Source: Phlebopus portentosus (lineage: Eukaryota > Basidiomycota > Agaricomycetes > Boletales > Boletinellaceae). Taken from it: DNA of 64,000 bases. Numbering within the stretch: position 1 is the first letter of the stretch; each line of letters opens with the position of its first letter. The notes below the pieces were generated by a model. It was not told the DNA's origin. It did no database searches and saw only the letters and a program-made list of their open reading frames with translations. The stretch is taken from NCBI GenBank assembly GCA_037892935.1, contig JAYXKI010000021.1:62001-126000 (forward strand). The letters are read 5' to 3'. Of the stretch, positions 3-22,707 are shown piece after piece. A program made the translations under genes and the position numbers.

Positions 3-2489
3 TCGGGCATGCAGATGGATCCCTACAAGGTAAAGGCAGTTCAAGAATGGCCAGATTTGTCAAGCAAGCGAGACATTCGAAAGTTTATCGGTTTTGCAAA
101 CTTCTACCGAAAATTTATTGAAGGTTTCGCCAAGATCGCTAGGCCACTAACGGAACTTATGTCCGGCAAGAAGACATTTACCTGGGGAGAGCGACAACAA
201 GAGAGCTTTAGGAAACTTAAAGAAGCTTTTACCACTGCACCGATGCTAGTACGACCGGATCATGAGAAGCAATTTGTGCTGGAAACCGACGCGTCAAACT
301 TTGCGATGGGAGCCGTGCTCTCGCAGCTTGGGGACGATGAAATTTTGCACCCCATTGGATATTGGTCGAACACCTATCGAGACGCCGAGAATAACTATCC
401 AGTAATGGACAAGGAATTACTAGCGATTGTCAAGGCCTTGAGCAACTGGAGGCACCACTTGGAAGGAGCTAAACATGAGATTCGAGTGGTCAGCGATCAA
501 GCTAACCTTCGATATTTTATGGGAGCTAGGAAGCTAAGTGGCCGCCAAGCAAGATGGGCGACATTTCTCAGCAGATTTCGATTTCGAATCGAGTATCGAC
601 CTGGAACCAAGAATTCACGAGCGGACGCATTATCAAGGAGGCCAGACTATGAACAGGGCCAAGAGGACCAGCCAGAACAAGTCCTACTTCCTCCGCAATT
701 GTTCAGAACATCGGACCTGCCCATGCGCACAGTACGGGTATTTGAGCTTACAGGGGGTCCTGAACTGGGAGAGAAGATTCGAGACGCCTATGAACGATCC
801 AAAGAGCCAGCAATCGGAACGTTCGAAGAAGGATATTGGTGGAAGGATGATAAATTGGTTATCCCGCCAGACGAAGAAGTTAAGAAGGAAATTGTACGAC
901 AGTGCCATGACGCACCGGCGTCAGGACACCCGGGGTTACAGAAGACTATAGACAAACTAGAAAGAAGAGTTTGGTGGCCGAAGATGAGGGAATGGGTCGA
1001 AGAATATGTGCGCACATGCGACGTGTGCCAGAGGACGAAAGCACGACGAGGAAAGACGCAACCACCGCTGCAACCTTTGCAGATAGCGACAAGGCCCTAC
1101 GACGAGATTACCATGGACTATGTCACCGGACTTCCAACGACGAGCAAAGGAAACAATGCAATACTAGTGGTGGTAGACAGGTTCTCTAAAATGGGAACTT
1201 TTATACCTACTACAGTAAATGCAAACTCGAAGACTACTGCGGACTTAATGATCAATTATGTCTACAGTAAGGTCGGGACTCCGAAGACAGTGATCAGCGA
1301 CAGGGGACCTCAATTCGCTAGCCGGTTTACAGAACAGGTGAACCAGGCCCTCGGGATCGAAACGAAGCTTAGTACGGCGTATCATCCACAAACAGATGGT
1401 CAAACGGAGCGAGTAAACCAAGAAATGGAACAGCTGTTACGTTGCTATTCCAGCTTGCAGCAGGACGACTGGGACGAACATTTGCCTATGGCAGAATTCG
1501 CCTATAACAGTCGCTCTCACTCCAGTACAGGCAAGACGCCATTTGAATTGGTGTATGGATTTCAGCCGGAGTTAGGATTCAAGCTTCCGATCCGAGGAAC
1601 TCAAGACTATGTGGCTATGCGAAAGAAGAATCAAGAAGAGGCAACCAAGGCGCTGGAGAAGGCACGAGACGCGATGAAGAGATTTGCGGATAGACACCGA
1701 GGCCCGATGCCGTCATTCAAAGTTGGCGATAAAGTTATGTTAGATGGTCGGAATCTAACCTTGCTAGTTCCCACGAGGAAGCTAGGGGATAGAAACCTGG
1801 GACCTTATCAAGTTATCGCAAAGCATGGGCTAGTCAACTACGAATTGGATCTCCCAAAAGAGTTGAGGATCCACCCGGTGTTCTATGCAGGACTATTAAT
1901 TCCCTATCGAGAAAGGAAAGATCCGGCACAGAGAACAAGACCACCACCAGAAGTTATCGCTGGAGAAACCGAATACGAGGTTGAAGCAATCCGGGACATG
2001 AGGAAAAGGCACGGAAAATGGGAGTATCAGGTTAAATGGCTCGGCTACCCGGAGGAAGAGAATACCTGGGAACCTGTAGAAGGGCTGCGCAATGCCCCAG
2101 AGAAATTGCGGGAGTATCACGAGAGGAATCGTTGGCCGGACACGATAGATCTTCCCTCTAGAAAGAAGATCGCGGATATTATAGACTCTACACAGAGAGT
2201 AATCGACATCAAGAAGGAGGATGACGAGTTCCTGAGGACGGCACTGGGAGAGTCCGTAGCTCAGAGGGTAATCAAGAGAAGAAAATACCAGAGCAAGACA
2301 GGTATCAAGCAGCGGGATTTCGGTTATCCGGAATGGCACAAGCGTCATTGGAGAGCCGCGAAAAGGCCATTCACTCGAAACAAAGCGCTGCCAGTTCGCA
2401 GATGGGATCTGCCAGAAGAAAAAGGGAATCCTTCATACAAGGATTGGTTTTGGGCTGACTCCTCGGATAGTGAGTGCAGCGAGGCTTAG
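3..2489 (+). CDS. Gypsy Pol, C-terminal part: RT end, RNase H, integrase, chromodomain
   Basis: Open from the window edge, so this is the last ~826 residues of the same polyprotein seen whole in copy A. In order: the end of the reverse transcriptase; RNase H with an ETDASN motif; the His/Cys integrase finger (GHPGL ... CDVCQRTK); the DDE integrase core (TMDYVTG, ISDRGPQF, and the Glu in QTERVNQEME); and a C-terminal chromodomain with VKWLGYPEEENTWEP. The chromodomain places it among chromoviruses, where this domain is thought to steer integration to marked chromatin. Only a few residues differ from copy A, for example Gly for Ser in FIEG/SFAK and Asn for Asp in GRN/DL. No stops are present, so this copy may be recently active. 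Confidence 0.95.
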   Translation, partial: SGMQMDPYKVKAVQEWPDLSSKRDIRKFIGFANFYRKFIEGFAKIARPLTELMSGKKTFTWGERQQESFRKLKEAFTTAPMLVRPDHEKQFVLETDASNFAMGAVLSQLGDDEILHPIGYWSNTYRDAENNYPVMDKELLAIVKALSNWRHHLEGAKHEIRVVSDQANLRYFMGARKLSGRQARWATFLSRFRFRIEYRPGTKNSRADALSRRPDYEQGQEDQPEQVLLPPQLFRTSDLPMRTVRVFELTGGPELGEKIRDAYERSKEPAIGTFEEGYWWKDDKLVIPPDEEVKKEIVRQCHDAPASGHPGLQKTIDKLERRVWWPKMREWVEEYVRTCDVCQRTKARRGKTQPPLQPLQIATRPYDEITMDYVTGLPTTSKGNNAILVVVDRFSKMGTFIPTTVNANSKTTADLMINYVYSKVGTPKTVISDRGPQFASRFTEQVNQALGIETKLSTAYHPQTDGQTERVNQEMEQLLRCYSSLQQDDWDEHLPMAEFAYNSRSHSSTGKTPFELVYGFQPELGFKLPIRGTQDYVAMRKKNQEEATKALEKARDAMKRFADRHRGPMPSFKVGDKVMLDGRNLTLLVPTRKLGDRNLGPYQVIAKHGLVNYELDLPKELRIHPVFYAGLLIPYRERKDPAQRTRPPPEVIAGETEYEVEAIRDMRKRHGKWEYQVKWLGYPEEENTWEPVEGLRNAPEKLREYHERNRWPDTIDLPSRKKIADIIDSTQRVIDIKKEDDEFLRTALGESVAQRVIKRRKYQSKTGIKQRDFGYPEWHKRHWRAAKRPFTRNKALPVRRWDLPEEKGNPSYKDWFWADSSDSECSEA

Positions 2490-2685: not shown

Positions 2686-2858
2686 TCACGTGACCGCCGC
2701 CTTTCTCTGAGAACAGATTGAGCGTTAATCACGTGATTGCCACCCTCTCATCCAAACAGGAAGTGTTTAAGTCACATGACTGCCGCACTTTTGTTCGGAC
2801 GGGTTGTGCGTCAGGTCACATGATCAATAATGAGTGGAGGACTCTGGATGTACAGTGC
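2686..2858 (+). repeat. 43-bp degenerate tandem repeat with a TCACRTGA palindrome in each unit
   Basis: The octamers TCACGTGA (2686, 2729) and TCACATGA (2772, 2816) recur with spacings of 43, 43 and 44 bp. In three units the octamer is followed by a related TGCCRC/CGCCGC stretch. CACGTG/CACATG are E-box cores bound by bHLH factors in fungi. The array lies between pol and the 3' LTR, so it could act as an enhancer or be a decayed tandem duplication. The function is inferred; the periodicity is directly visible. Confidence 0.8.
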
Positions 2859-2997
2859 TACAGTTATTCCAGACAAGAGGAATGAGACACTAGTACACAA
2901 GAAGGGTCTGGTCTAGGAAGCAACAATACGAAACAGCAAGATTATGGCTACCACAATTAAGGGATCCACACTCTCCTTGCAGTCCGAAGTGGATCTT

Positions 2998-3008
2998 AAG
3001 GGGAGGAA
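2998..3008 (+). other. Polypurine tract of copy A'
   Basis: AAGGGGAGGAA sits immediately before the TG of the 3' LTR, the position where plus-strand DNA synthesis is primed in LTR retrotransposons. The same tract is next to the 3' LTR of copy A at 11597-11607 on the other strand. Confidence 0.85.
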
Positions 3009-3032
3009 TGTTACGAAAATTGTGGATATACA

Positions 3033-4016
3033 ATGCGGCGTGGTATCAGACGCTTTACACACCGAATTATGCAGCCCAATCCAGAGCATTTCGAAAGACT
3101 TCAAGGACAGCATAGTGGAGGCGATTCTCGCCCACTAGTACAGCAAGGACCTGGGGAGGTCGCTGTGGAATATATTCAAGAGGAACCCGATCGACGATAT
3201 TACGAGGACGAACGCGACGAAAGGGAGGATCCATACGATTTACAGCAAGGACTAGCTGGAATGCATATTGGACATACTCCTCCACCCGAGCGAAGCTACG
3301 TGGACATGGAAGAACGGAACATCGCAAGATACGTGGAACTCCTGCAGAAAAGACGATATCGACATAGTGCAACCAGACGCTTTGTTCATGAAAGCCTGGT
3401 CTGTACAAACTGCTATTTGGCATACCAAAGGAGTTGGGTTCTTTCGGAGTGGCTCCTCAAGAACTTTGTGGAGCGCTTAGTAACTAGGGAAGGAGCCGAT
3501 GTCAAGATTCGGCATAAACCCGGACCCTCAGAACGAACGTTTGACCAACCATTACCGAACCGCGGAATGAGCGCATACGACCACGAGGTATCTGTATGGC
3601 TGGGCGATAGGGATATCTATGCACTGAAGGTTGGCGTGAGAGCTTGGATCAATCAGCATCGTCACCAGACCTTGTGTCGAAACACTGCAGTGGAAGTCGA
3701 TTGGCCAATCTATTACAGGGCGCCATCGGACGTCGAAAGTCTTATCGAAGAAGCAACGGATCGAATGCTAGAAGCATGGGAACGATCAGAAGAAGGGGTT
3801 ATTACAGTCGACGAATGGCGCGGGACGAATCACCTGGGAAGAAGATACAGGTTAACGTCGGGTACCGGACTACAATTCTCCGACATCGATATCGCGGCTA
3901 GGCATAGAAGGGTGTCTGCTAAATTTACACAGCCGCCAAGGTTAATCTCCGATGATCGGCAGGGGTTGCCGATCCCAAATCCCGAAATAACGGTCAGCCC
4001 CATGATGGAAGATTAA
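3033..4016 (+). CDS. LTR-encoded protein of 327 aa, unknown function (copy in A' 3' LTR)
   Basis: An uninterrupted 327-codon frame lying wholly inside the LTR, starting 24 bases after its first base. I do not recognise a family. The protein is hydrophilic, with an acidic/arginine-rich N-terminal third (RRYYEDERDERED), a single CTNC pair near residue 124, a Trp-rich middle (VLSEWLLKNF, VRAWINQHRH) and a helical stretch around VESLIEEATDRMLEAWE. No signal peptide or membrane segment is visible. It lies upstream of the TATA-like box, so it is in U3 and would form the 3' end of the genomic RNA, downstream of pol. All three LTRs in the window keep it open with the same protein sequence as far as I compared. 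A 64-codon frame with its own ATG at 2944 overlaps its start in another frame and could belong to the same transcript. Confidence 0.7.
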   Translation: MRRGIRRFTHRIMQPNPEHFERLQGQHSGGDSRPLVQQGPGEVAVEYIQEEPDRRYYEDERDEREDPYDLQQGLAGMHIGHTPPPERSYVDMEERNIARYVELLQKRRYRHSATRRFVHESLVCTNCYLAYQRSWVLSEWLLKNFVERLVTREGADVKIRHKPGPSERTFDQPLPNRGMSAYDHEVSVWLGDRDIYALKVGVRAWINQHRHQTLCRNTAVEVDWPIYYRAPSDVESLIEEATDRMLEAWERSEEGVITVDEWRGTNHLGRRYRLTSGTGLQFSDIDIAARHRRVSAKFTQPPRLISDDRQGLPIPNPEITVSPMMED

Positions 4017-4360
4017 ACGGCAGAAGCTCGGCCGGAATAACGGAGCGCCGGCGAAGCGAGGTCGCGGCACATGGAAGAAGTCTCTCGTGGGAGGATTGGC
4101 GTTAAGGATTAACATGTGATAGGAATGGAGATCGATAGAAGCCTGGGGAAAGCTTCTTCGGAACGGGAGGAAATTAGGGCCTGCCTAATAGGGAAGGAAG
4201 TAGTCGGTGGTGCAACCAGGAGTTTCGGTAGCACCACCAGAGTTGTCAGTGGTACTACAGACTCAAGAGAGTAGTAGTGACACCAGCTGAAACACATTGT
4301 CCTAACCAATAGCGAGGCATGGTCGGTAGTATTTGGTAGTCGGTAGTATTCAGTAGAAAC

Positions 4361-4370
4361 TTTATTTAAG
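4361..4370 (+). promoter_or_regulatory. TATA-like box of the family A LTR
   Basis: TTTATTTAAG lies about 245 bp before the LTR end, directly after a short reiteration of GGTAGTATT (4327-4353). In copy A it is in the same place in both LTRs, near 10235-10255 and 21341-21361 on the minus strand. It is the best candidate for the core promoter of the element; no transcript start can be seen directly. Confidence 0.5.
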
Positions 4371-4614
4371 GCGCCAGCTGAGCGGGGTGTTGTCCCTCAG
4401 CAAAATTATTTTGTACTTTCAATCATAACTGTACCCCTTTGATTGAACCTCTGCTCTACTACTGGGTCAAGCTTGAGCCTATAGCTCGCTTCTTAGTAGT
4501 ACATCTAACCTTCGCTACTCTACTCTCCAATTGTACATTGTCAGAAGGAGGAAGCAGGGACTTGTTCCGGTACGCTCGGACTAACCACCTCGTCCGAAAA
4601 TACTAGTCCTAACA

Positions 4615-5538
4615 GATTCCTTCGACCACCTTCGGGTTCAGAGCCCTCTTGAGGCGACTCATCAGCCATTCGTCATGAGCCTCCGTGGCCAGTCCAGCAT
4701 CCACTCGGCAAATGTCAAACTTGTTGAAGAATTCATCTGCATTGAGATCGCCCTGATACATCGCGTCGAGTCGTTCAAATGCTTTTTGAGACCGGGCCGG
4801 GTCATCAAACGAGGTATCAAGCTTCTTTAGGAAAGCGTCCCAAGTATCCTTGAATGCTATCCTGCCATGTTCGTCGATTGCACCACTCGTGTAGCTTTCC
4901 GCCCAGCTCGCAGCAGTGCCGCTCTTCATATACGACAGAGCGAACATGATCTTCGCTTTGCTTGTCCTAAACTCCGACTCTGATGCATAAACATACAGGC
5001 GCAGCTCTCGTTTGAAGTCGACATATCCGTGCTCGCCATCGAAGTCTCGGGGCTTGGTGACATGAACCTTGTTTGACTTTGATCCTTGGCCCGTGCCTTC
5101 TCCTGCTGTCTGGAGTGCTAGCGCAATCGCCGTAGCAAGGTCCATTATTGACTCTTTCGACAACGACATCTCTTGCTCTTCTTCTTCGTCTTCCTCTTCT
5201 TCGTCTGTTGGTACGAGCGGAGCAGGCTCTCGTGGTTCAGTGAAAGATAACGAAGGTGCTATAGGTGGAGCTGTCGTCTGGCCTGTCGATGTTGATGGCC
5301 CTGGTAAAGGAACCGTTGATCGCGTGGGGGTAGGGGGTGCAGGATCGTCTATGTCTCCCTCTCGCTTCGCTCGCCAATAAAGCGACTTTCCTTCTCTGTC
5401 AGAGTACCACTTCTTCGCGTTCTCGTCCCACCAAGCAGTAAAGATTTGATCGCCTGACTTGACAATGTGATGTCCTCGTGACGCGCTCCACCTACAGTTT
5501 GTCGGGAGAGCCGCCCGCTGGTCGTCAGTTAGATCCAC
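4615..5538 (-). pseudogene. gag of element C, truncated by copy A' insertion
   Basis: A 308-codon open frame starting MDLTDDQRAALPTNCRW, closely similar to the element B gag (MELTDEQRAALPANSRW). It has a Trp-rich start, a proline/acidic linker with an EEEEDEEEEQEMSLS run, then the retrotransposon capsid-like region (KPRDFDGE, FKRELRLY, SYMKSGTAASWAE, FDDPARSQKAFERLDAM). It has no stop of its own before the insertion: the frame reads KVVEGI and then runs into the LTR. The zinc-knuckle end is therefore missing in this window. Upstream is a ~400-bp leader also seen in element B. Confidence 0.9.
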
Positions 5539-9510: not shown

Positions 9511-9551
9511 CGAAAAGAGTCCTTTAGGAGACCGACCAGTCGTTCCGACGT

Positions 9552-9990
9552 CTACGCCTGGTCTGCTGGAAAACCCTCACCGTCCACTAACTCTTCCAGC
9601 TCAGTGGGCACTGCCCGGACCTCAACCTCTTCGAAGGAGGATTCCTTCGCTTGACCGAGTTCTTCGAGGAGCGCTTCTCTGTCTTCTGGAACAAAGGCTG
9701 CGATGATGGCACGTATCGCTTCACGGCCTCGCGGGCATTCCCTGATGTAGTGGCCCACCTGACCACACTTGTAACAAGCATGTGTACGACGCGCCTGGTT
9801 CATCATTACGTCCATTGGCTGTCCTAAGCCTCCATATGTCACTCCCGTTGCATCACGACGATCTTGGGCGGGGGGCACAAAGGGACGAGCTGCTTGTTGA
9901 GGCGGCACTGGGCATCGCAGTGGTGGTACTGGAGCCGGCTTCGTCATAGTCGAGTTTGTCGCCTTCCGCCGACGTTCGGCCATCAGATCC
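9552..9990 (-). pseudogene. gag of element B, 3' half with zinc knuckle
   Basis: This is the continuation of the frame at 22703-23714. Joined at GATCC the protein reads RQIRDL-MAERRRKATN without loss. It contains a proline-rich linker, then one CCHC zinc knuckle (CYKCGQVGHYIREC) that would bind RNA in the capsid, and an acidic C-terminus ending at TAG 9552. The pol frame overlaps it in the -1 frame. Confidence 0.9.
9986..9990. other. Target-site duplication GATCC, left copy
   Basis: GATCC directly next to the first base of the left LTR of copy A, matched by GATCC at 22703-22707 on the other side. A 5-bp duplication is usual for Gypsy integrases. Confidence 0.95.
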
Positions 9991-11596
9991 TGTTAGGACC
10001 AGTATTTTCGGACGAGGTGGTTAGTCCGAGCGTACCGGAACAAGTCCCTGCTTCCTCCTTCTGACAATGTACAATTGGAGAGTAGCGTAGCGAAGGTTAG
10101 ATGTACTACTAAGAAGCGAGCTATAGGCTCAAGCTTGACCCAGTAGTAGAGCAGAGGTTCAATCAAAGGGGTACAGTTATGATTGAAAGTACAAAATAAT
10201 TTTGCTGAGGGACAACACCCCGCTCAGCTGGCGCCTTAAATAAAGTTTCTACTGAATACTACCGACTACCAAATACTACCGACCATGCCTCGCTATTGGT
10301 TAGGACAATGTGTTTCAGCTGGTGTCACTACTACTCTCTTGAGTCTGTAGTACCACTGACAACTCTGGTGGTGCTACCGAAACTCCTGGTTGCACCACCG
10401 ACTACTTCCTTCCCTATTAGGCAGGCCCTAATTTCCTCCCGTTCCGAAGAAGCTTTCCCCAGGCTTCTATCGATCTCCATTCCTATCACATGTTAATCCT
10501 TAACGCCAATCCTCCCACGAGAGACTTCTTCCATGTGCCGCGACCTCGCTTCGCCGGCGCTCCGTTATTCCGGCCGAGCTTCTGCCGTTTAATCTTCCAT
10601 CATGGGGCTGACCGTTATTTCGGGATTTGGGATCGGCAACCCCTGCCGATCATCGGAGATTAACCTTGGCGGCTGTGTAAATTTAGCAGACACCCTTCTA
10701 TGCCTAGCCGCGATATCGATGTCGGAGAATTGTAGTCCGGTACCCGACGTTAACCTGTATCTTCTTCCCAGGTGATTCGTCCCGCGCCATTCGTCGACTG
10801 TAATAACCCCTTCTTCTGATCGTTCCCATGCTTCTAGCATTCGATCCGTTGCTTCTTCGATAAGACTTTCGACGTCCGATGGCGCCCTGTAATAGATTGG
10901 CCAATCGACTTCCACTGCAGTGTTTCGACACAAGGTCTGGTGACGATGCTGATTGATCCAAGCTCTCACGCCAACCTTCAGTGCATAGATATCCCTATCG
11001 CCCAGCCATACAGATACCTCGTGGTCGTATGCGCTCATTCCGCGGTTCGGTAATGGTTGGTCAAACGTTCGTTCTGAGGGTCCGGGTTTATGCCGAATCT
11101 TGACATCGGCTCCTTCCCTAGTTACTAAGCGCTCCACAAAGTTCTTGAGGAGCCACTCCGAAAGAACCCAACTCCTTTGGTATGCCAAATAGCAGTTTGT
11201 ACAGACCAGGCTTTCATGAACAAAGCGTCTGGTTGCACTATGTCGATATCGTCTCTTCTGCAGGAGTTCCACGTATCTTGCGATGTTCCGTTCTTCCATG
11301 TCCACGTAGCTTCGCTCGGGTGGAGGAGTATGTCCAATATGCATTCCAGCTAGTCCTTGCTGTAAATCGTATGGATCCTCCCTTTCGTCGCGTTCGTCCT
11401 CGTAATATCGTCGATCGGGTTCCTCTTGAATATATTCCACAGCGACCTCCCCAGGTCCTTGCTGTACTAGTGGGCGAGAATCGCCTCCACTATGCTGTCC
11501 TTGAAGTCTTTCGAAATGCTCTGGATTGGGCTGCATAATTCGGTGTGTAAAGCGTCTGATACCACGCCGCATTGTATATCCACAATTTTCGTAACA
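9991..11596 (-). repeat. 3' LTR of copy A
   Basis: 1606 bp, TGTTACG..CTAACA on the minus strand, adjoining the left GATCC. It carries an intact copy of the 327-codon LTR frame and the TATA-like box. Confidence 0.95.
10589..11572 (-). CDS. LTR-encoded protein of 327 aa (copy in A 3' LTR)
   Basis: The same 327-residue product as at 3033-4016, open from ATG at 11572 to TAA at 10589. The only nucleotide difference from the A' copy that I noted is silent (AAG for AAA in LQKRRY). As the last frame of the element it lies 3' of pol in the genomic RNA and would need a subgenomic or spliced message, or transcription from an internal promoter. No homologous family is recognised, so the function is unknown. 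Confidence 0.7.
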   Translation of the reverse strand: MRRGIRRFTHRIMQPNPEHFERLQGQHSGGDSRPLVQQGPGEVAVEYIQEEPDRRYYEDERDEREDPYDLQQGLAGMHIGHTPPPERSYVDMEERNIARYVELLQKRRYRHSATRRFVHESLVCTNCYLAYQRSWVLSEWLLKNFVERLVTREGADVKIRHKPGPSERTFDQPLPNRGMSAYDHEVSVWLGDRDIYALKVGVRAWINQHRHQTLCRNTAVEVDWPIYYRAPSDVESLIEEATDRMLEAWERSEEGVITVDEWRGTNHLGRRYRLTSGTGLQFSDIDIAARHRRVSAKFTQPPRLISDDRQGLPIPNPEITVSPMMED

Positions 11597-12115: not shown

Positions 12116-15100
12116 CTAAGCCTCGCTGCACTCACTATCCGAGGAGTCAGCCCAAAACCAATCCTTGTATGAAGGATTCCCTTTTTCTTCTGGCAGATCC
12201 CATCTGCGAACTGGCAGCGCTTTGTTTCGAGTGAATGGCCTTTTCGCGGCTCTCCAATGACGCTTGTGCCATTCCGGATAACCGAAATCTCGCTGCTTGA
12301 TACCTGTCTTGCTCTGGTATTTTCTTCTCTTGATTACCCTCTGAGCTACGGACTCTCCCAGTGCCGTCCTCAGGAACTCGTCATCCTCCTTCTTGATGTC
12401 GATTACTCTCTGTGTAGAGTCTATAATATCCGCGATCTTCTTTCTAGAGGGAAGATCTATCGTGTCCGGCCAACGATTCCTCTCGTGATACTCCCGCAAT
12501 TTCTCTGGGGCATTGCGCAGCCCTTCTACAGGTTCCCAGGTATTCTCTTCCTCCGGGTAGCCGAGCCATTTAACCTGATACTCCCATTTTCCGTGCCTTT
12601 TCCTCATGTCCCGGATTGCTTCAACCTCGTATTCGGTTTCTCCAGCGATAACTTCTGGTGGTGGTCTTGTTCTCTGTGCCGGATCTTTCCTTTCTCGATA
12701 GGGAATTAATAGTCCTGCATAGAACACCGGGTGGATCCTCAACTCTTTTGGGAGATCCAATTCGTAGTTGACTAGCCCATGCTTTGCGATAACTTGATAA
12801 GGTCCCAGGTTTCTATCCCCTAGCTTCCTCGTGGGAACTAGCAAGGTTAGATCCCGACCATCTAACATAACTTTATCGCCAACTTTGAATGACGGCATCG
12901 GGCCTCGGTGTCTATCCGCAAATCTCTTCATCGCGTCTCGTGCCTTCTCCAGCGCCTTGGTTGCCTCTTCTTGATTCTTCTTTCGCATAGCCACATAGTC
13001 TTGAGTTCCTCGGATCGGAAGCTTGAATCCTAACTCCGGCTGAAATCCATACACCAATTCAAATGGCGTCTTGCCTGTACTGGAGTGAGAGCGACTGTTA
13101 TAGGCGAATTCTGCCATAGGCAAATGTTCGTCCCAGTCGTCCTGCTGCAAGCTGGAATAGCAACGTAACAGCTGTTCCATTTCTTGGTTTACTCGCTCCG
13201 TTTGACCATCTGTTTGTGGATGATACGCCGTACTAAGCTTCGTTTCGATCCCGAGGGCCTGGTTCACCTGTTCTGTAAACCGGCTAGCGAATTGAGGTCC
13301 CCTGTCGCTGATCACTGTCTTCGGAGTCCCGACCTTACTGTAGACATAATTGATCATTAAGTCCGCAGTAGTCTTCGAGTTTGCATTTACTGTAGTAGGT
13401 ATAAAAGTTCCCATTTTAGAGAACCTGTCTACCACCACTAGTATTGCATTGTTTCCTTTGCTCGTCGTTGGAAGTCCGGTGACATAGTCCATGGTAATCT
13501 CGTCGTAGGGCCTTGTCGCTATCTGCAAAGGTTGCAGCGGTGGTTGCGTCTTTCCTCGTCGTGCTTTCGTCCTCTGGCACACGTCGCATGTGCGCACATA
13601 TTCTTCGACCCATTCCCTCATCTTCGGCCACCAAACTCTTCTTTCTAGTTTGTCTATAGTCTTCTGTAACCCCGGGTGTCCTGACGCCGGTGCGTCATGG
13701 CACTGTCGTACAATTTCCTTCTTAACTTCTTCGTCTGGCGGGATAACCAATTTATCATCCTTCCACCAATATCCTTCTTCGAACGTTCCGATTGCTGGCT
13801 CTTTGGATCGTTCATAGGCGTCTCGAATCTTCTCTCCCAGTTCAGGACCCCCTGTAAGCTCAAATACCCGTACTGTGCGCATGGGCAGGTCCGATGTTCT
13901 GAACAATTGCGGAGGAAGTAGGACTTGTTCTGGCTGGTCCTCTTGGCCCTGTTCGTAGTCTGGCCTTCTTGATAATGCGTCCGCTCGTGAATTCTTGGTT
14001 CCAGGTCGATACTCAATTCGAAATCGAAATCTGCTGAGAAATGTCGCCCATCTTGCTTGGCGGCCACTTAGCTTCCTAGCTCCCATAAAATATCGAAGGT
14101 TAGCTTGGTCGCTAACCACTCGAATCTCATGTTTAGCTCCTTCCAAGTGGTGCCTCCAATTGCTCAAGGCCTTGACAATCGCTAGTAATTCCTTGTCCAT
14201 TACTGGATAGTTATTTTCGGCGTCTCGATAGGTGTTCGACCAATATCCAATGGGGTGCAAAATTTCATCGTCCCCGAGCTGCGAGAGCACGGCTCCCATC
14301 GCAAAGTTTGACGCGTCGGTTTCCAGCACAAATTGCTTCTCGTGATCCGGTCGTACTAGCATTGGTGCAGTGGTAAAAGCTTCTTTAAGTTTTCTAAAGC
14401 TCTCTTGTTGCCGTTCTCCCCAGGTAAATGTCTTCTTGCCAGACATTAGTTCCGTTAGTGGCCTAGCAATTTTGGCGAAACTTTCGATAAATTTCCGGTA
14501 GAAGTTCGCAAATCCAATAAACTTTCGAATGTCTCGCTTGCTTGACAAGTCTGGCCATTCTTGAACCGCCTTTACCTTGTAGGGATCCATCTGCATGCCC
14601 GACTGGTTAACCACAAATCCTAAATAGTCGAGTTCCTTCTTTCCGAAGTAGCACTTCTCTGGTTTGCAGAAGAAGTCTGCTTCTCTTAACCTGCGCAATA
14701 CCTCTGCTAGCAGGTCCCAATGTTCCTGTTCCGTTTCCGCATAGACTATAATGTCATCCAAATAAATGAGTATGCCCTGCCCAATCATGTCTTGAAAGAG
14801 CTCATTCATTGCACGTTGGAATACCGCAGGTGCATTCATTAATCCGAACTGCATTACCATCGGCTGGTATACTCCCATGTGAGTCCTGAAGGCGGCATAC
14901 TTCTCGTGCCCAGGGTGTATTCGAATGTTGTTATACCCACTTCGCAAATCCAGTGTAGAGAACCATTTGGCATGTGCAAGATCGTCCGGGAGCATATGTA
15001 ACAAAGGCATTGGTTGGTGGTCTGGAATAACCACCGCATTTAGCCCTCTATAGTCGATAACAATTCTGTACTCCGGCTTGCCATCCTTCCCTATTGTCTT

Positions 15101-17407
15101 CTTGGCTATGACAAATACTGGTGCGCAAGTGTTCGCTTTTTCTTCAGCTGGTACTCGGTTTCCCACAACACGAATCCATCCCTTCTTCAGATCCTCGCGA
15201 ATCCATTCTTCTACTGCACGCTTTTCAGCAGGAGCGAGTGGATATACTGGTCCAGGTTTCGGGAGCTCTGCCCCTGGTAGGAGCTCAATCTTCATGTCCC
15301 ATTGTCCCGACTTAGGTAGCCGCTTAGCAGCATCCTTGTCGAACCTATCCCTGAACTCCCATATTTGTTTTGGAAGAATGTCTTCGAGAGATTTGTTGCC
15401 AGCAGAGCCTGCCATCCTTTCATCGAGTGCTTTCTCTTGTGCGTATTTTTGAGCTATGCTGTTGTACTTGAGAAGGCGTTCTCTCCGTGATGCGACTTGT
15501 CGATGCTCTAGGCGGCGGATCCAGTGAGGAGGTTTGGGTGGCTCTCCTCTTCGAGAGGCGTCCTCTGCTTCCACTAAGGTAGCAGGCTTGTGCGATCCTA
15601 GGATACCCTTGAACTCCGTCTCAGATCCAGCTCTTCTCTCTAGCACTTTTCCTTCCACTTTGGGCGGCTGCATGACCGAGTCAACAGGCGTGCGCCATCG
15701 GCGCCTCTTCTGCCCCTGCGAGAGCCCCTGCTCCATCACGGCATAATTCGAAATGAACCTGTTACCTTTACCGTTTGTTTTCCCTGTCGGAGCAGGGCCC
15801 TGCATTTGGTTCTTAAACCGTGGTCTTCGCGGGCGCACTTGAGCTCCCGAAGCTAGCCTACTTGATGATTGCGGCGTACTGGCTTCGGCCCTGTGCCAAT
15901 TGAGTGGGACTACCCTCCCTTTGGGGTGGACCACTTTCCTAGACACTAGCCTACCCTTGAACGGCGTCTCATGTCTAGTCACTCCTCGGTCTCTCGTAGG
16001 AGGAGATCTCGCTAGGTGGCCGAACCTAGTACGCTTTGTAGCCTTAGTTCTACAGCGCTCCCGACCCGAAGTACTCCTGCTTGTACCCCTGCTTCGTGTG
16101 GTGAAGCTTACCGACTGCTTCTGCACTGCCCGGGTTGAGTCATTTTGGCCCTCGTGCACGGATGGAGGAGTCCACTCCACCCTAATACTCCTTATGACAG
16201 GGTTTGAATCCGTACCACTTCCTCCGCTCTTCTGTCGACGCATCTTGAGAGGATCAGGTGCGTAGTGTCCAGGCTTTCCTCCTTTAGGTGGTACACTAGG
16301 CTTCTTCCTTCTACTCGCATCAGATCCTTCTGCGTCGATTGTCATTTGTGCCTGTATTTCTTCCCGCACTCTTGCTTGGTCTTCAGATGTTGTTGGTGAG
16401 GTCGCCGTTCCCAGGCCTCCCTGAATCGCTATCAGCTGAAGACGCGCCATATACATGCCGCCATATTCATCGAGGAGTTCATCATGTTTGGCGCCCTTGT
16501 CCATTTCTCTGACCATGGTGCGGTATACTGCACCATCTGCATCCTCGAGACTGTTAAAGTTGTGCCAGTTTTGATCATCCTTCGTTATTCGGCACTTATC
16601 CCCGAACCAAAAGAATTTCCATCTTCCTTCTTGCTTAGCGAAGGAGAGTTCTGGCGGCTTGTGCATGACTTCTTCGAACGTGACAAGCGGTGCTGCTGAT
16701 TCCTTTTCTTTTCCTTTGTCTGGTGGTACGATCGTAGGTTCTTCTTCTATGTCTTCCTTCTCAGTTTCTTGTCCTGTTTCGATGTCGCTGTGGTAATAGA
16801 CCCTAGTTTCCCAAGCTTCTTCCTTTTCATCATCGGCATCCCATTCGGGTGGAATGTAGTCTGGAATTCTTCGCCATCTTCTGCGTTTCCGGAGCTTCCT
16901 TGGGGCTAGGATTAGCTGTATGGAACGCAATCGTGCCGTTCCATTAAATGCAATTTCCTTCCCGCCTTTGCGAAGAATCCCCTTTGTCCAGTCGATGGTT
17001 GGCTTATGCTGTTCAAGCCAATCATTTCCTATGAGAAACTTGTCTTCGTGTGTATCCACCACTGCGATGTCCATTAAACCTCTTGTAATCCCTGTGTCCA
17101 CTATTGCTCTGACGTTCCGAGTCCATCCACCATGATTAATCGATCCATCGGCGTTCCGGATGGTATAATTACCTTCTGCAGGCACTGTTCTCAGCCCTAG
17201 GCTCTGTACAACCATGGGGCTAATAGTAGTGATCGCAGATCCGGAGTCAATCATAGCCGAGAGATTAACCTTTTTCTGTCCCTGAATGACGTCAATGGGT
17301 ATAGTGGGATGGTTGGAGTTTGGTCTAGCAATAGTCCATCGGCGCTTTATCTCTTGTGTGTCCTTCGAGCCCTCGCCAGTGTCCGATGTTGACTGGCGGC
17401 CCTTCAA
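12116..17407 (-). CDS. Gypsy chromovirus Pol polyprotein (complete)
   Basis: About 1763 residues without a stop. Protease with DSGSAITT near residues 54-61; RT with ILIYLDDIIVY, Asp pair near residue 883; RNase H with ETDASN; integrase finger GHPGL ... CDVCQRTK and DDE core (first Asp near residue 1306); chromodomain near residues 1590-1640 ending in the ENTWEP motif. Between protease and RT there is an unusually long region of roughly 500 residues, basic and serine/proline rich, containing a WRRIPDYIPPEWD segment, with no domain I recognise. The frame has no ATG at its start: it overlaps the end of gag in the -1 frame and begins to diverge at a run of five T's, so it is probably made as a Gag-Pol fusion by frameshifting. 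It is cut into enzymes by its own protease in related elements. Confidence 0.95.
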   Translation of the reverse strand: MKGRQSTSDTGEGSKDTQEIKRRWTIARPNSNHPTIPIDVIQGQKKVNLSAMIDSGSAITTISPMVVQSLGLRTVPAEGNYTIRNADGSINHGGWTRNVRAIVDTGITRGLMDIAVVDTHEDKFLIGNDWLEQHKPTIDWTKGILRKGGKEIAFNGTARLRSIQLILAPRKLRKRRRWRRIPDYIPPEWDADDEKEEAWETRVYYHSDIETGQETEKEDIEEEPTIVPPDKGKEKESAAPLVTFEEVMHKPPELSFAKQEGRWKFFWFGDKCRITKDDQNWHNFNSLEDADGAVYRTMVREMDKGAKHDELLDEYGGMYMARLQLIAIQGGLGTATSPTTSEDQARVREEIQAQMTIDAEGSDASRRKKPSVPPKGGKPGHYAPDPLKMRRQKSGGSGTDSNPVIRSIRVEWTPPSVHEGQNDSTRAVQKQSVSFTTRSRGTSRSTSGRERCRTKATKRTRFGHLARSPPTRDRGVTRHETPFKGRLVSRKVVHPKGRVVPLNWHRAEASTPQSSSRLASGAQVRPRRPRFKNQMQGPAPTGKTNGKGNRFISNYAVMEQGLSQGQKRRRWRTPVDSVMQPPKVEGKVLERRAGSETEFKGILGSHKPATLVEAEDASRRGEPPKPPHWIRRLEHRQVASRRERLLKYNSIAQKYAQEKALDERMAGSAGNKSLEDILPKQIWEFRDRFDKDAAKRLPKSGQWDMKIELLPGAELPKPGPVYPLAPAEKRAVEEWIREDLKKGWIRVVGNRVPAEEKANTCAPVFVIAKKTIGKDGKPEYRIVIDYRGLNAVVIPDHQPMPLLHMLPDDLAHAKWFSTLDLRSGYNNIRIHPGHEKYAAFRTHMGVYQPMVMQFGLMNAPAVFQRAMNELFQDMIGQGILIYLDDIIVYAETEQEHWDLLAEVLRRLREADFFCKPEKCYFGKKELDYLGFVVNQSGMQMDPYKVKAVQEWPDLSSKRDIRKFIGFANFYRKFIESFAKIARPLTELMSGKKTFTWGERQQESFRKLKEAFTTAPMLVRPDHEKQFVLETDASNFAMGAVLSQLGDDEILHPIGYWSNTYRDAENNYPVMDKELLAIVKALSNWRHHLEGAKHEIRVVSDQANLRYFMGARKLSGRQARWATFLSRFRFRIEYRPGTKNSRADALSRRPDYEQGQEDQPEQVLLPPQLFRTSDLPMRTVRVFELTGGPELGEKIRDAYERSKEPAIGTFEEGYWWKDDKLVIPPDEEVKKEIVRQCHDAPASGHPGLQKTIDKLERRVWWPKMREWVEEYVRTCDVCQRTKARRGKTQPPLQPLQIATRPYDEITMDYVTGLPTTSKGNNAILVVVDRFSKMGTFIPTTVNANSKTTADLMINYVYSKVGTPKTVISDRGPQFASRFTEQVNQALGIETKLSTAYHPQTDGQTERVNQEMEQLLRCYSSLQQDDWDEHLPMAEFAYNSRSHSSTGKTPFELVYGFQPELGFKLPIRGTQDYVAMRKKNQEEATKALEKARDAMKRFADRHRGPMPSFKVGDKVMLDGRDLTLLVPTRKLGDRNLGPYQVIAKHGLVNYELDLPKELRIHPVFYAGLLIPYRERKDPAQRTRPPPEVIAGETEYEVEAIRDMRKRHGKWEYQVKWLGYPEEENTWEPVEGLRNAPEKLREYHERNRWPDTIDLPSRKKIADIIDSTQRVIDIKKEDDEFLRTALGESVAQRVIKRRKYQSKTGIKQRDFGYPEWHKRHWRAAKRPFTRNKALPVRRWDLPEEKGNPSYKDWFWADSSDSECSEA

Positions 17408-17412
17408 AAATC
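17404..17412 (-). promoter_or_regulatory. Candidate -1 frameshift site at the gag stop
   Basis: On the minus strand the gag frame ends GAT TTT TGA. The Phe codon before the stop can re-pair one base back on the T5 run, after which the reading becomes TTT TTG AAG, the pol frame. The pol frame is open for about 45 bases upstream of this point, so slippage here gives a continuous Gag-Pol. The mechanism is inferred. Confidence 0.5.
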
Positions 17413-18426
17413 CTCCTCGGAATCCTCCTCGAGGGCATACGAAGCCCGTTCCTTACGCCTTGGTAACTTCGTTTTCTTGTCCAGTAGTTCCTCCATTTCA
17501 GAATCGCTGCTAATCCCAACTTCCCGGCGTTTTAGGAAGCGGCCAGTCTTGCCAGATCGTCTCTTCTGCACCCGTCTCTTGTAGTTGGTTCGGTGTCCAC
17601 GGCTTCCCTGTGTGTCTCGCCCTACATTGTTGCAGTCCCGTGCGAAGTGACCTGTCTTGCCGCATGCCCAGCATATCCCGGCATCTCCTCGGGACCCCCT
17701 AGTAAAGCGCCTAGACATGTCGATGTCCATAGGCTCACCCAGAAACTCAGCTGGACGGCGAGCTTCTGGGGGCACTGGCGTGTACGATACTGCCTGCCCA
17801 TCTTTAAACATGGGGGTGTACTTCCTATTGCTGCCTATCACCTTGGCAGCCATCAGACTGGCCTCCAGATTACTAGCGTTCTCCTTCCATTGGTTCAGGT
17901 CCCATTCTGGGTGGTCTGTATTCGTAAGCAGGGCTTTTAGGATCGTTTGATTGAGTCCTCTCTTGTACTCGTAAATCAGTGCCTGATGGTCGTAGTGCTT
18001 TGGCAGCCTCATCCTAATGTCGTCAAAGGCCCTGTTATACTGCTTCACCCGCGCCCGTTCCTGATAAATCGTCCTAATATTCCGCTCGGCTTCTTCTTGA
18101 AGTCCAAAAATGCCATTGTGGTTGAGCGCTAATTCGTTCCATAGATCGTCCTCGCTGTCCCATCCACCCTTCTTGTCTATAACAAGCTTGCCATCCGCAT
18201 CTCGCTTGTAGGTGGAGACTAATTGATTTCTGTTCACGGCCCACTTGCCATTAACCCAAGTCTGAGCTTGACCTCGCAGACATTCCAAAATAATCTTAAC
18301 CCTCTTGACTGGGTCGCTCGGATGTTTTTCATTCAACCGGCTGATCATTTGATTCTGGAAGTTCTCAAGCGACTCATAAGGGTTTCCCTTAAACAAGGGA
18401 TACTTCATGATATCTTTGTTTGACAT
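17404..18426 (-). CDS. Gag capsid protein with CCHC zinc knuckle (family A)
   Basis: A 340-residue frame beginning MSNKDIMKYPLFKGNPYES. The middle holds the retrotransposon gag fold signature (KIILECLRGQAQTWVNG, TIYQERARVKQYNRAFDDI), followed by one CCHC knuckle CWACGKTGHFARDC near residues 250-263, a very basic tract (NYKRRVQKRRSGK) and an acidic tail. It forms the particle that packages the element RNA. It is not related in sequence to the B/C gag. ATG at 18426 is the first in frame, about 200 bp after the end of ORF1. Confidence 0.9.
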   Translation of the reverse strand: MSNKDIMKYPLFKGNPYESLENFQNQMISRLNEKHPSDPVKRVKIILECLRGQAQTWVNGKWAVNRNQLVSTYKRDADGKLVIDKKGGWDSEDDLWNELALNHNGIFGLQEEAERNIRTIYQERARVKQYNRAFDDIRMRLPKHYDHQALIYEYKRGLNQTILKALLTNTDHPEWDLNQWKENASNLEASLMAAKVIGSNRKYTPMFKDGQAVSYTPVPPEARRPAEFLGEPMDIDMSRRFTRGSRGDAGICWACGKTGHFARDCNNVGRDTQGSRGHRTNYKRRVQKRRSGKTGRFLKRREVGISSDSEMEELLDKKTKLPRRKERASYALEEDSEEDF

Positions 18427-18623: not shown

Positions 18624-20531
18624 CTATCTCCTTTCTTCCCGAGCTTCGTATCGTTCCTCGCCGCTTTCGTGTTCCTCGCTTTCCTCTTCTGTCTCCCATT
18701 CGTCGTTCGCATCGAAGTACTCTTGATCCTCGCTGGTTGGCTCTTCTACATTGTTACCCCGCACCCAAACTACCGTCGCCATGTTCGCTACCCCCTGCCT
18801 CGGTGGTCCCTCTCGTATGTCGAGAAAGACCGATGGTATAGGGCAGCTGTTAGGACGAGTGATAGGATCATAGATATAATCAGAGTCTGGGGAGTACTCA
18901 CTGACCGCCTGGAGCCTTGCTTCTCTCTCCTCAAGCTCAAGAGCACTTGGAGTAGGCGATCCTGGCGGTGAGTCCTGGTGCGGGTATTGAAGGTGGTTCC
19001 TTTCGACGTAGTGGCCATTCCATCCCAGCCGTTGAATCGCTCCCTCGACGAGTTCTCCCTGCTCATTCCACATGAGTTCCCGGATTCCCGTGCCATACCC
19101 CGTTTCCGCCGTGTTGTCCGCCTCCCATGCTTCCCCAGCATCGGGAGGCGGTCCCCATCCGTCGTTGGATGGCCAGGGCTGTGGTGACTCGGGAATCACC
19201 TCCCTCAGCAGTTCTTCTGCTTGCTGGTCCAGGCTTCCGGGTTGCGTTTCTGTGGAGACGTAGTCCGGGAGATCTTCTTCAACTTCGATGCTTCCTTCGA
19301 CTTCCTGTTCTTCTTGGGCGAGCACAGTAGGTGCTACCAGCCCTCGTTCCGCAACTACCTCAGCGACATAGTTCCTTCCAAGTTCTACTGCCTGCTGTCG
19401 TAACTGCGCTGACGGTTGTCCTGTTCGAGTGTCCGTTCCTTCAGGTTCCCTGCTCTGGCGAATGATCTCAACCATCTGATCCACAAAGCGTTCCCTTGCT
19501 GGGATCAGGTGGGGCATCTGGTCGTCGTCGGAGTCCGAGCTCACGCTTTCGAAGCGGCTAGCTAGACCTAGGCCTCTACCTTGCAGCGGGGAGTCAGGGC
19601 TCAACCTCGCCCTTCCTCGCCTAGCTCGCTGCGTCAGGTAGGATTGACGAAGCCTAATCGTTTGTTGGATCCGACGAATGCCTTCCGTGATCGAGTACTG
19701 GGCCACGAGTTCTTCTTCGGCATTGCTGATCCGGGCTCGAATAGCCTCAACCTGTTCGACCAGGTAGCTAGCCTGCGTGTGTAACTGCAGGAAGTCCGTA
19801 CCAGTGAGCCGAATAATTTCTTGCTGGGAGTTGACCACTTGTTGAGCAAGGGCTGACTGACTGCCCTGAATGGCCATTGTTACCGCTCCCAGAATACGAG
19901 CCTGAAGAATACCGAACGCGTAGTTGATCCGTACGTCTCGCTGTTCGCCTTCTCGCCTGAGGTTGGTGATGACTGCTTCGGCGATCGCATCCCCGACATG
20001 TCCCTGAATATGCGCCAGAAACTCCCCCAGTGTCTGTCCTTCTACGGTAAGGTTCTCGGAGTATTGAGAGCCCATGTCGTAGAGTCGAGCGACAGTAGCT
20101 GTGAGAGTTCTGAGGGACCGATCAACGCTAGTAAGTCGATTGTCGAGGTCGATGACGGCGTGTCGCAGGGCGGAGACAACTTGGTTGGGTTGCCCGTCAG
20201 CACTGACCATTCGGTCCAAGCGTCCGTGTAGACTGTCGAGTCGTTCGCTGATACGTGCCAGAGCGGATTCCATACGTTCTCCAGGTCCGGGTTGAGGAAC
20301 TGCCAGTCGTTGAGTTTGGAGTAGAAATCTCCGACCGGCACGACGGAATGGGGAACTTCTTTCGTTGTCTTGCCGTTCCACCCACGTCCATAGCGTTCTA
20401 AAGCCTCGAAGAAGGCTGATTCGACCTCGGAGTTGTTGAGCAATGAAGTATACCAAGGAAGAAAACCAGACGATGCAGAGTGTAAACCAGAGACTAGACC
20501 AACCAACTTGCCACAGTTCCATCGGTGACAT
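18624..20531 (-). CDS. ORF1 region of family A, 3' frame: long coiled-coil protein
   Basis: A 635-codon frame starting with ATG at 20531. From about residue 86 it is convincingly coding: heptad-like coiled coil (MESALARISERLDSLHGRLDRM, RLTSVDRSLRTLTATVARL, LVEQVEAIRARISNAEEEL), then an acidic, proline-rich, disordered C-terminal third. No family recognised. The first ~85 residues contain a stretch that would score as a membrane segment (residues 9-31), but they overlap a longer frame with more natural composition, so the true N-terminus probably comes from that other frame by splicing or frameshift near 20290. It could be an assembly or accessory protein placed ahead of gag. Confidence 0.55.
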   Translation of the reverse strand: MSPMELWQVGWSSLWFTLCIVWFSSLVYFIAQQLRGRISLLRGFRTLWTWVERQDNERSSPFRRAGRRFLLQTQRLAVPQPGPGERMESALARISERLDSLHGRLDRMVSADGQPNQVVSALRHAVIDLDNRLTSVDRSLRTLTATVARLYDMGSQYSENLTVEGQTLGEFLAHIQGHVGDAIAEAVITNLRREGEQRDVRINYAFGILQARILGAVTMAIQGSQSALAQQVVNSQQEIIRLTGTDFLQLHTQASYLVEQVEAIRARISNAEEELVAQYSITEGIRRIQQTIRLRQSYLTQRARRGRARLSPDSPLQGRGLGLASRFESVSSDSDDDQMPHLIPARERFVDQMVEIIRQSREPEGTDTRTGQPSAQLRQQAVELGRNYVAEVVAERGLVAPTVLAQEEQEVEGSIEVEEDLPDYVSTETQPGSLDQQAEELLREVIPESPQPWPSNDGWGPPPDAGEAWEADNTAETGYGTGIRELMWNEQGELVEGAIQRLGWNGHYVERNHLQYPHQDSPPGSPTPSALELEEREARLQAVSEYSPDSDYIYDPITRPNSCPIPSVFLDIREGPPRQGVANMATVVWVRGNNVEEPTSEDQEYFDANDEWETEEESEEHESGEERYEAREERR

Positions 20532-20959: not shown

Positions 20960-21096
20960 TTATCGATGATCAGCTAATTGTATTAACAGGCATAGAAGAA
21001 ACCCTCCCAGGGCAGAGCAATACTTACTGATCGATAGTGGGTATTGCACTATGAAACAGCAAGATTGATTATCCCAGGATTGGAGCAAAATTATAA
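20960..21096 (-). other. Leader of copy A next to the 5' LTR
   Basis: 137 bp between the LTR and the open ORF1 region. A primer-binding site is expected within the first bases (minus strand TTATAATTTTGCTCC after the LTR), but no clear tRNA match was recognised. Confidence 0.5.
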
Positions 21097-22702
21097 TGTT
21101 AGGACCAGTATTTTCGGACGAGGTGGTTAGTCCGAGCGTACCGGAACAAGTCCCTGCTTCCTCCTTCTGACAATGTACAATTGGAGAGTAGCGTAGCGAA
21201 GGTTAGATGTACTACTAAGAAGCGAGCTATAGGCTCAAGCTTGACCCAGTAGTAGAGCAGAGGTTCAATCAAAGGGGTACAGTTATGATTGAAAGTACAA
21301 AATAATTTTGCTGAGGGACAACACCCCGCTCAGCTGGCGCCTTAAATAAAGTTTCTACTGAATACTACCGACTACCAAATACTACCGACCATGCCTCGCT
21401 ATTGGTTAGGACAATGTGTTTCAGCTGGTGTCACTACTACTCTCTTGAGTCTGTAGTACCACTGACAACTCTGGTGGTGCTACCGAAACTCCTGGTTGCA
21501 CCACCGACTACTTCCTTCCCTATTAGGCAGGCCCTAATTTCCTCCCGTTCCGAAGAAGCTTTCCCCAGGCTTCTATCGATCTCCATTCCTATCACATGTT
21601 AATCCTTAACGCCAATCCTCCCACGAGAGACTTCTTCCATGTGCCGCGACCTCGCTTCGCCGGCGCTCCGTTATTCCGGCCGAGCTTCTGCCGTTTAATC
21701 TTCCATCATGGGGCTGACCGTTATTTCGGGATTTGGGATCGGCAACCCCTGCCGATCATCGGAGATTAACCTTGGCGGCTGTGTAAATTTAGCAGACACC
21801 CTTCTATGCCTAGCCGCGATATCGATGTCGGAGAATTGTAGTCCGGTACCCGACGTTAACCTGTATCTTCTTCCCAGGTGATTCGTCCCGCGCCATTCGT
21901 CGACTGTAATAACCCCTTCTTCTGATCGTTCCCATGCTTCTAGCATTCGATCCGTTGCTTCTTCGATAAGACTTTCGACGTCCGATGGCGCCCTGTAATA
22001 GATTGGCCAATCGACTTCCACTGCAGTGTTTCGACACAAGGTCTGGTGACGATGCTGATTGATCCAAGCTCTCACGCCAACCTTCAGTGCATAGATATCC
22101 CTATCGCCCAGCCATACAGATACCTCGTGGTCGTATGCGCTCATTCCGCGGTTCGGTAATGGTTGGTCAAACGTTCGTTCTGAGGGTCCGGGTTTATGCC
22201 GAATCTTGACATCGGCTCCTTCCCTAGTTACTAAGCGCTCCACAAAGTTCTTGAGGAGCCACTCCGAAAGAACCCAACTCCTTTGGTATGCCAAATAGCA
22301 GTTTGTACAGACCAGGCTTTCATGAACAAAGCGTCTGGTTGCACTATGTCGATATCGTCTCTTCTGCAGGAGTTCCACGTATCTTGCGATGTTCCGTTCT
22401 TCCATGTCCACGTAGCTTCGCTCGGGTGGAGGAGTATGTCCAATATGCATTCCAGCTAGTCCTTGCTGTAAATCGTATGGATCCTCCCTTTCGTCGCGTT
22501 CGTCCTCGTAATATCGTCGATCGGGTTCCTCTTGAATATATTCCACAGCGACCTCCCCAGGTCCTTGCTGTACTAGTGGGCGAGAATCGCCTCCACTATG
22601 CTGTCCTTGAAGTCTTTCGAAATGCTCTGGATTGGGCTGCATAATTCGGTGTGTAAAGCGTCTGATACCACGCCGCATTGTATATCCACAATTTTCGTAA
22701 CA
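21097..22702 (-). repeat. 5' LTR of copy A
   Basis: 1606 bp, the same form as the 3' LTR at 9991-11596, adjoining the right GATCC. It carries the 327-codon frame and the TATA-like box that would drive the element. Confidence 0.95.
21695..22678 (-). CDS. LTR-encoded protein of 327 aa (copy in A 5' LTR)
   Basis: The third intact copy of the LTR frame, protein identical to 10589-11572. By chance the frame stays open upstream through the GATCC junction into the interrupted gag region of element B, giving a 360-codon frame from 22777; the extra 33 residues belong to no natural protein. In this 5' position the frame would be transcribed only by promoters outside the element. Confidence 0.7.
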   Translation of the reverse strand: MRRGIRRFTHRIMQPNPEHFERLQGQHSGGDSRPLVQQGPGEVAVEYIQEEPDRRYYEDERDEREDPYDLQQGLAGMHIGHTPPPERSYVDMEERNIARYVELLQKRRYRHSATRRFVHESLVCTNCYLAYQRSWVLSEWLLKNFVERLVTREGADVKIRHKPGPSERTFDQPLPNRGMSAYDHEVSVWLGDRDIYALKVGVRAWINQHRHQTLCRNTAVEVDWPIYYRAPSDVESLIEEATDRMLEAWERSEEGVITVDEWRGTNHLGRRYRLTSGTGLQFSDIDIAARHRRVSAKFTQPPRLISDDRQGLPIPNPEITVSPMMED

Positions 22703-22707
22703 GATCC
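22703..22707. other. Target-site duplication GATCC, right copy
   Basis: GATCC directly after the TAACA edge of the right LTR of copy A; partner of 9986-9990. Confidence 0.95.

Follow-up and report, generated by a model that had tools for sequence, protein, structure and literature searches.

The window, a stretch of 64,000 nucleotides, opens with the 3' part of a Ty3/Gypsy chromovirus whose 3' LTR holds, entirely within its 1606 bp (3009-4614) and between the termini TGTTAC and CTAACA, a plus-strand ORF of 327 codons at 3033-4016 (Table 1). The same LTR is repeated in inverted orientation at 9990-11595, where the arms are 99% complementary, and at 21097-22702, where they are 100% complementary. 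These two copies enclose a second, complete element on the minus strand (9990-22702), which is bounded by the 5-bp duplication GGATC. The coordinates and the inverted repeats bear out the claim of the original prediction that the 327-residue frame lies within the 1606-bp LTR in all three copies in the window; the third copy of the ORF sits in a longer open frame (21695-22777, minus strand), of which 21695-22678 is the LTR portion. The complete element consists, in order, of the 5' LTR, an ORF upstream of gag (ORF0), gag with a zinc knuckle, pol with protease, reverse transcriptase (RT), RNase H, integrase and chromodomain, and the 3' LTR. This succession of Gag, protease, RT, RNase H and integrase, together with the chromodomain, the TG...CA ends of the LTRs, the short target-site duplication, the primer binding site (PBS) and the polypurine tract, places the family among the Ty3/Gypsy chromoviruses (Metaviridae). 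The sequences flanking the complete element (4615-9989 and 22703 onward) appear by eye to be older Gypsy gag/pol on the minus strand, and 4619-5551 and 6022-6295 resemble 22795-23727 and 24258-24531 (73-92%).

Table 1. Features of the two elements in the window.
Feature	Position	Strand	Basis
3' part of first element's pol	9..2489	+	
Four TCACRTGA palindromes, spacing 43/43/44 bp; candidate enhancer or promoter	2686..2823	+	
Conserved block before 3' LTR with acceptor-like CTCTCCTTGCAG	2941..3008	+	14-copy variability
Polypurine tract preceding 3' LTR	2995..3008	+	
LTR (3' LTR of the element whose 3' part opens the window), 1606 bp, TG...CA	3009..4614	+	
U3-encoded ORF, 327 aa, alternative start Met13 at 3069	3033..4016	+	
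TATA-like box of LTR promoter, TTTATTTAAG	4361..4370	+	read in sequence
AGCAAAATTAT, inferred R start and self-primer, complementary to PBS	4399..4409	+	
Target-site duplication GGATC	9985..9989, partner 22703-22707	not applicable	
3' LTR of second, complete element	9990..11595	-	
LTR ORF copy in complete element's 3' LTR	10589..11572	-	
pol: protease, RT, RNase H, integrase, chromodomain	12116..17407	-	
gag (capsid-type domain, CCHC zinc knuckle)	17404..18426	-	
ORF0, 635 aa, upstream of gag	18624..20531	-	
Primer binding site ATAATTTTGCT, 2 nt inside 5' LTR	21084..21094	-	
5' LTR of complete element	21097..22702	-	
LTR ORF copy in complete element's 5' LTR	21695..22678	-	

The longest stop-free run in the LTR reaches 335 codons, compared with a mean of 113 and a maximum of 247 in 2000 dinucleotide shuffles. 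An antisense gene was considered and dropped, since no minus-strand ORF of at least 150 aa overlapping 3033-4016 was found in the window. The borders of the LTR were examined across the genome by classifying 75 full-length LTRs, with 12 further partial rows excluded: 27 are 5' LTRs, 26 are 3' LTRs and 22 are neither. Identical 5-bp flanks are found in 20 of these 22, indicating that they are solo LTRs, that the borders are as given and that the ORF is truly inside the LTR. Solo LTRs with an intact frame exist, for example L046 and L048. Five solo LTRs on four contigs (L046, L047, L048, L051 and L052; C12 twice, C18, C20 and C21) share the same ACCCC flanks and probably represent one insertion multiplied by duplication or another repeat; the frame is open in two of the five. 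One further LTR copy (L075, G000:C14:909700-911600) lies within an open frame of 13594 aa, probably adjoining unread bases.

The ORF ends at 4016, ahead of the TATA-like box at 4361-4370 and of AGCAAAATTAT at 4399-4409, the latter about 29-38 bp past the TATA-like TTTATTTAAG. The PBS ATAATTTTGCT, just after the 5' LTR, is the exact complement of AGCAAAATTAT, and this 11-nt complementarity is perfect in 27 of the 33 LTR copies that have a PBS downstream (L040, a false match among 34 rows, is left out of the count). A PBS complementary to the 5' end of the RNA characterizes the self-priming elements Tf1 and Tj1, according to the available text of PMC4600332. The same layout is seen here over 11 nt with an inferred RNA 5' end, and cleavage and priming are putative; an LTR gene, present here, is not mentioned for Tf1 or Tj1 in that text. 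The element's RNA probably starts at 4399, and with this start the ORF would lie wholly in U3 and form the 3' part of the genomic RNA. The original prediction had placed the frame upstream of the TATA-like box and at the 3' end of the genomic RNA, which agrees with these positions, and its description of a U3-encoded protein in a Gypsy LTR gains support from the self-priming mark of the RNA start. In this mushroom chromovirus, the 11-nt self-priming complementarity persists in copies that are about 80% identical.

A search of the 38.4-Mb assembly retrieved at least 122 scored copies of the LTR ORF out of 242 candidates, and the homologous protein of Sanghuangporus vaninii, used as the query, gave 129 scored matches out of 235 candidates. 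As the original prediction had cautioned, the near-identical copies in the window are too young to show selection; the needed test came from the 122 scored genome copies, which, with others at 79-85% identity, also establish that further LTRs carry the ORF. No stop falls inside the match in 77 of the 122. Stops accumulate in the diverged copies, and CGA to TGA changes account for most of them (61 of 112 stop cells), a CpG-decay pattern indicating that CpG-type mutation of inserted copies occurs in the host.

We then analysed how the frame has evolved. Eighty LTRs were taken (62 that make up most, though not all, of the less identical matches of the assembly search, 8 retrieved by the S. vaninii-protein search only and 10 young ones), of which 7 were not full length and were dropped before alignment; the remaining 73 and the window copy make up 74 LTRs. 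Diversity at codon positions 1, 2 and 3 is 0.056, 0.044 and 0.135 in the ORF, and 0.066, 0.058 and 0.074 in the corresponding phases of the downstream LTR. The 981-bp ORF has four unique indels (+1, -3, -9 and -9), three of them multiples of three; among the 21 in the other 625 bp of the LTR, a single one is. After correction for the mutation spectrum of the LTR itself, with CpG context taken into account, the N/S ratio relative to neutrality is 0.37 in the frame (400 sampled pairs); the other two sense frames give 1.78 and 1.73, and the three frames of the downstream LTR 0.83, 1.19 and 1.20. When pairs were grouped by their number of differences, the in-frame ratio was 0.67 at 0-5 differences (13 pairs), 0.47 at 5-10 (9 pairs) and 0.23-0.36 thereafter, with 0.42 in the two most distant bins. 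Codon models with one omega, fitted to 23 of the 31 frame-intact copies chosen to be more than 1.2% apart, gave 0.284 (MGK), 0.292 (GY) and 0.199 (MG without the transition term); limiting the set to intact frames can lower these values somewhat. dN/dS between elements is 0.28-0.46 depending on the method, and not near 1, the value that the original prediction had set against itself for diverged copies. The 3' part of pol, used as a yardstick, has an omega of 0.113 (14 copies); the LTR protein is constrained, though less than pol.

The two LTRs of one insertion provide a view of the frame after integration. Thirteen same-insertion pairs were matched by their spacing and orientation; four span nested insertions and one shows no difference, and N is 163.5 and S 93.5 in all. 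Their omega is 1.01 (bootstrap 0.81-1.23) under their own mutation spectrum and 0.81 (0.66-0.99) under the between-element spectrum, or 0.95 and 0.77 without the four nested pairs. Between elements, 600 of 2688 pairs gave 0.46 under the same-insertion spectrum and 0.38 under the between-element spectrum. The same-insertion values of 0.81-1.01 are comparable to those of the downstream LTR frames (0.83-1.20); their neutrality hinges on the null spectrum, and the contrast to the between-element pairs stands under both. Near neutrality within insertions and constraint between them indicate that selection acts mainly during replication and largely ceases on insertion. LTR genes domesticated and kept by selection on the fungus itself would explain why so many scored copies are stop-free in the match and why solo LTRs such as L046 and L048 retain an intact frame, and the value of 0.81 under one of the two null spectra leans the same way; however, the same-insertion pairs are near neutral against 0.46 or 0.38 between elements, and diverged copies gather stops. 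Maintenance by the host is thus disfavoured for the family as a whole, and we regard it as very improbable.

Older members of the family were reached through ORF0, a search with which gave 70 matches, the least similar at 54% identity. Among nine places preceding old ORF0 copies the LTR is present at seven, three of the seven being whole, at 79-85% nucleotide identity; L102, L104 and L105 hold part of the ORF only, and L103 and L106 gave no LTR match. Four old copies were analysed for selection (L101, L107, L108 and L109; three whole and one part). Three of them are free of indels in whatever portion of the frame they retain, and the fourth has a -1. With CpG sites masked, their omega relative to the window copy is 0.33-0.41; comparisons of the decayed copies with one another give 0.43-0.60, as expected if neutral decay is added. 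The near identity of the three window copies would suit an open frame that persists by chance in a young LTR family, its protein never made, but this reading is refuted by the frame-specific purifying selection; with the shuffle test, the contrast to the near-neutral same-insertion pairs and the S. vaninii homologue described below also against it, we find it scarcely credible. We are highly confident that the ORF is coding and selected through replication.

Named relatives of the predicted protein were retrieved from two species only. The one in S. sanghuang is 97% identical, and S. vaninii has a homologue with 65% identity over 96% (ACEPAH_5283) and a shorter one with 63% identity over 57% (ACEPAH_3246). 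An ORF0 relative in S. vaninii, ACEPAH_3244 (51% over 76%), is two locus tags away from ACEPAH_3246, and the longest contig given for each of the two is the same, with 3,381,195 bases; judging the location from locus-tag order, the LTR gene adjoining ORF0 seems to be kept in that species. Homologues beyond the young copies, whose absence the original prediction would have counted against itself, are therefore present both in the 79-85% identical copies and, at 65%, in S. vaninii. Outside Sanghuangporus, two sweeps of 5.8 billion proteins, sensitive only to shared exact 5-residue words, retrieved no relative, and the second, with the alignment as the query, added nothing (7993 candidates scored). 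The original prediction had recognised no family, in line with the lack of a match above the cut-off in Pfam and of a matching chain in the PDB. The near-matches in Pfam to DUF7419 (E 0.04) and, for the S. vaninii relatives, to DUF1570 (E 0.003-0.006, below the family cut-off) were taken as chance, each being inconsistent between close relatives. AlphaFold2 models of four sequences had a mean pLDDT of 38 and were unusable.

Met1 and Met13 are each retained in 76 of 78 copies, and the annotated Sanghuangporus relatives P0001 and P0002 begin at Met13. The first 12 of the 327 codons in the original prediction are uncertain. Residues 31-90 are acidic (net charge -9) and residues 91-180 basic (+6); the acidic N-terminal part diverges between species, and residues ~113-200 are nearly unchanged. 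Omega is 0.16 at codons 129-168 and 0.79 at codons 13-48 (700 sampled pairs). Cys124, Cys127 and Cys215 are retained in 77 of 78 copies and His209 and His211 in all 78, and all five are present in the full-length S. vaninii protein P0002. C124-x2-C127 together with H209-x-H211-x3-C215 is a possible metal site. The protein may be a regulator that combines an acidic part with a core binding metal, which is our reading and not a result.

How the protein would be expressed was approached through the sequence ahead of the 3' LTR. The 519-bp spacer after pol contains four TCACRTGA 8-mers (at 2686, 2729, 2772 and 2816), compared with 0.018 expected from shuffles. All four are intact in 9 of 14 copies, and the other five (L089, L090, L092, L093 and L095) have one site changed each, or two in L093. 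Diversity at these sites is 0.032 versus 0.073 in their flanks, and 8% of slid positions are equally low. Further downstream, 6 of 68 columns are variable at 2941-3008 versus 19 of 40 at 2901-2940 (14 copies), and this block may serve the LTR ORF as a core promoter, a leader or a splice acceptor. By eye, no TATA box or convincing splice donor was seen between pol and the LTR. A short intron beginning at a GTAAGT near 2553 was dropped, as 4 of 14 copies have this motif deleted or truncated. Being 3'-terminal in the genomic RNA, behind three long ORFs (ORF0, gag and pol), the LTR ORF would most likely be translated from a shorter RNA, and since a 9-kb intron would be unusual in a fungus, that RNA would most likely begin ahead of the 3' LTR. 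Its start or splice junction would be close to the LTR border, within the TCACRTGA array and the 68-bp block or downstream of them. We give about even chances to translation from a subgenomic RNA of this origin.

Directly supported are the location of the ORF, purifying selection between elements, near-neutrality after insertion, the old copies and the homologue in a second species. The U3 of this fungal Gypsy family thus contains a genuine gene under selection, and its role is most likely accessory or regulatory. In the model that we propose, an accessory protein of 315-327 aa would be encoded in U3 and required during the replication cycle of the element. Both LTRs of a new insertion take their U3 from the 3' end of the genomic RNA, so that each insertion would receive two copies of the ORF and each solo LTR would keep one, and every copy would drift nearly neutrally once inserted. 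The protein would act in trans, activating the element's promoter or relieving host silencing. That it is such a regulator rather than a structural or enzymatic part is a tentative proposal, to which we give somewhat less than an even chance. The model as a whole, comprising a genuine element gene, a U3-encoded accessory protein needed in replication, and expression and role as proposed, we favour by a small measure.

The same protein could instead be a component of the particle (matrix, assembly or Env-like), perhaps acting with ORF0. Purifying selection through replication would suit any essential element protein, and ORF0, a second unfamiliar protein, has relatives in the same two Sanghuangporus species; but the element already has a Gag with a zinc knuckle, no capsid or envelope family in Pfam is matched above the cut-off, and a subgenomic RNA from the 3' end would be an odd source for a bulk structural protein. 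We consider a structural role unlikely. We also weighed whether the protein blocks the silencing or DNA-methylation machinery of the host, as retroviral accessory proteins do with restriction factors. The fast evolution of part of the N-terminus (codons 13-48) and the decay of copies mainly through CGA to TGA changes are in keeping with such counter-defence. No homologue with such a role was found, however, and the core at codons 129-168 is strongly conserved, so that we hold this reading to be quite unlikely.

An LTR is an unusual site for a gene; the best-known gene to lie entirely within one is sag of mouse mammary tumour virus (MMTV), whose protein is similar in size to the product of the LTR ORF. 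The 3' accessory genes bel1/bet of foamy viruses, of which bel1 uses an internal promoter, and nef of lentiviruses reach into U3 and start outside the LTR, whereas the whole frame is inside the LTR here; no Bel1, Bet or Nef family was matched in Pfam up to E 10. According to the available text of PMC3026287, the MMTV LTR is ~1.3 kb long because it encodes Sag, and the Sag RNAs, which start in the 5' LTR or at a promoter in env, are spliced to an acceptor that closely precedes the frame in the 3' LTR. Both genes lie in the U3 of an unusually long LTR, and in the element described here, too, the complete frame is inside U3, upstream of the promoter TATA. In contrast to MMTV, however, we are dealing with a fungal Ty3/Gypsy element without a sequence or domain match, splicing and promoter are represented by candidate signals, and nothing in a fungus corresponds to the part that Sag plays in T cells. 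No superantigen family was matched in Pfam (listed up to E 10) or the PDB. The parallel with sag drawn in the original prediction thus stands for the layout only, without detectable homology.

Additional ORFs in LTR retrotransposons are already known. Plant LTR retrotransposons carry additional ORFs (aORFs) of unknown function (PMC7264820) and Retrosat2 has an ORF0 (PMC3485330). As far as the available text of both papers goes, these ORFs occupy the internal region, either preceding gag-pol or following pol ahead of the 3' LTR, and some are antisense. The Botrytis element Boty has the antisense ORF brtn (cited in the available text of PMC8365987), and a rotifer LTR retrotransposon has ORF3 (available text of PMC5408684). 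The LTR ORF resembles these in being an extra ORF beyond gag-pol, in many copies and under selection, but it is inside the LTR and not in the internal region, and none of the others is so described in the available text of these papers. What is new here is the position inside the LTR; in the available text of the open-access PMC literature, we found no report of a gene inside the LTR of a fungal retrotransposon. A broader possibility, which we think doubtful, is that a fungal Ty3/Gypsy element has independently evolved the layout of complex retroviruses, with a U3 gene, a promoter of its own and action in trans on promoter or silencing, through a protein family so far confined to Sanghuangporus.

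A selected LTR gene in a fungal retrotransposon would show that this arrangement arises independently, and that additional genes, perhaps with a regulatory role, can be part of simple Gypsy elements. It would also show that solo LTRs, which are usually deemed non-coding debris, can endow a genome with a protein gene in many copies. The LTR-pair test, near neutral after insertion and constrained between insertions, is applicable to any family with long LTRs. As regards other parts of the element, ORF0 is a second unexplained protein, with relatives found only in Sanghuangporus; by eye, a hydrophobic stretch lies near its N-terminus, and its Pfam matches, weak and coiled-coil-like, are below the cut-off. 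Between 2501 and 2616, a stretch of ~30 bp is present as two direct copies, and ~83 bp around these repeats is missing in 4 of 14 elements, with two different break positions.
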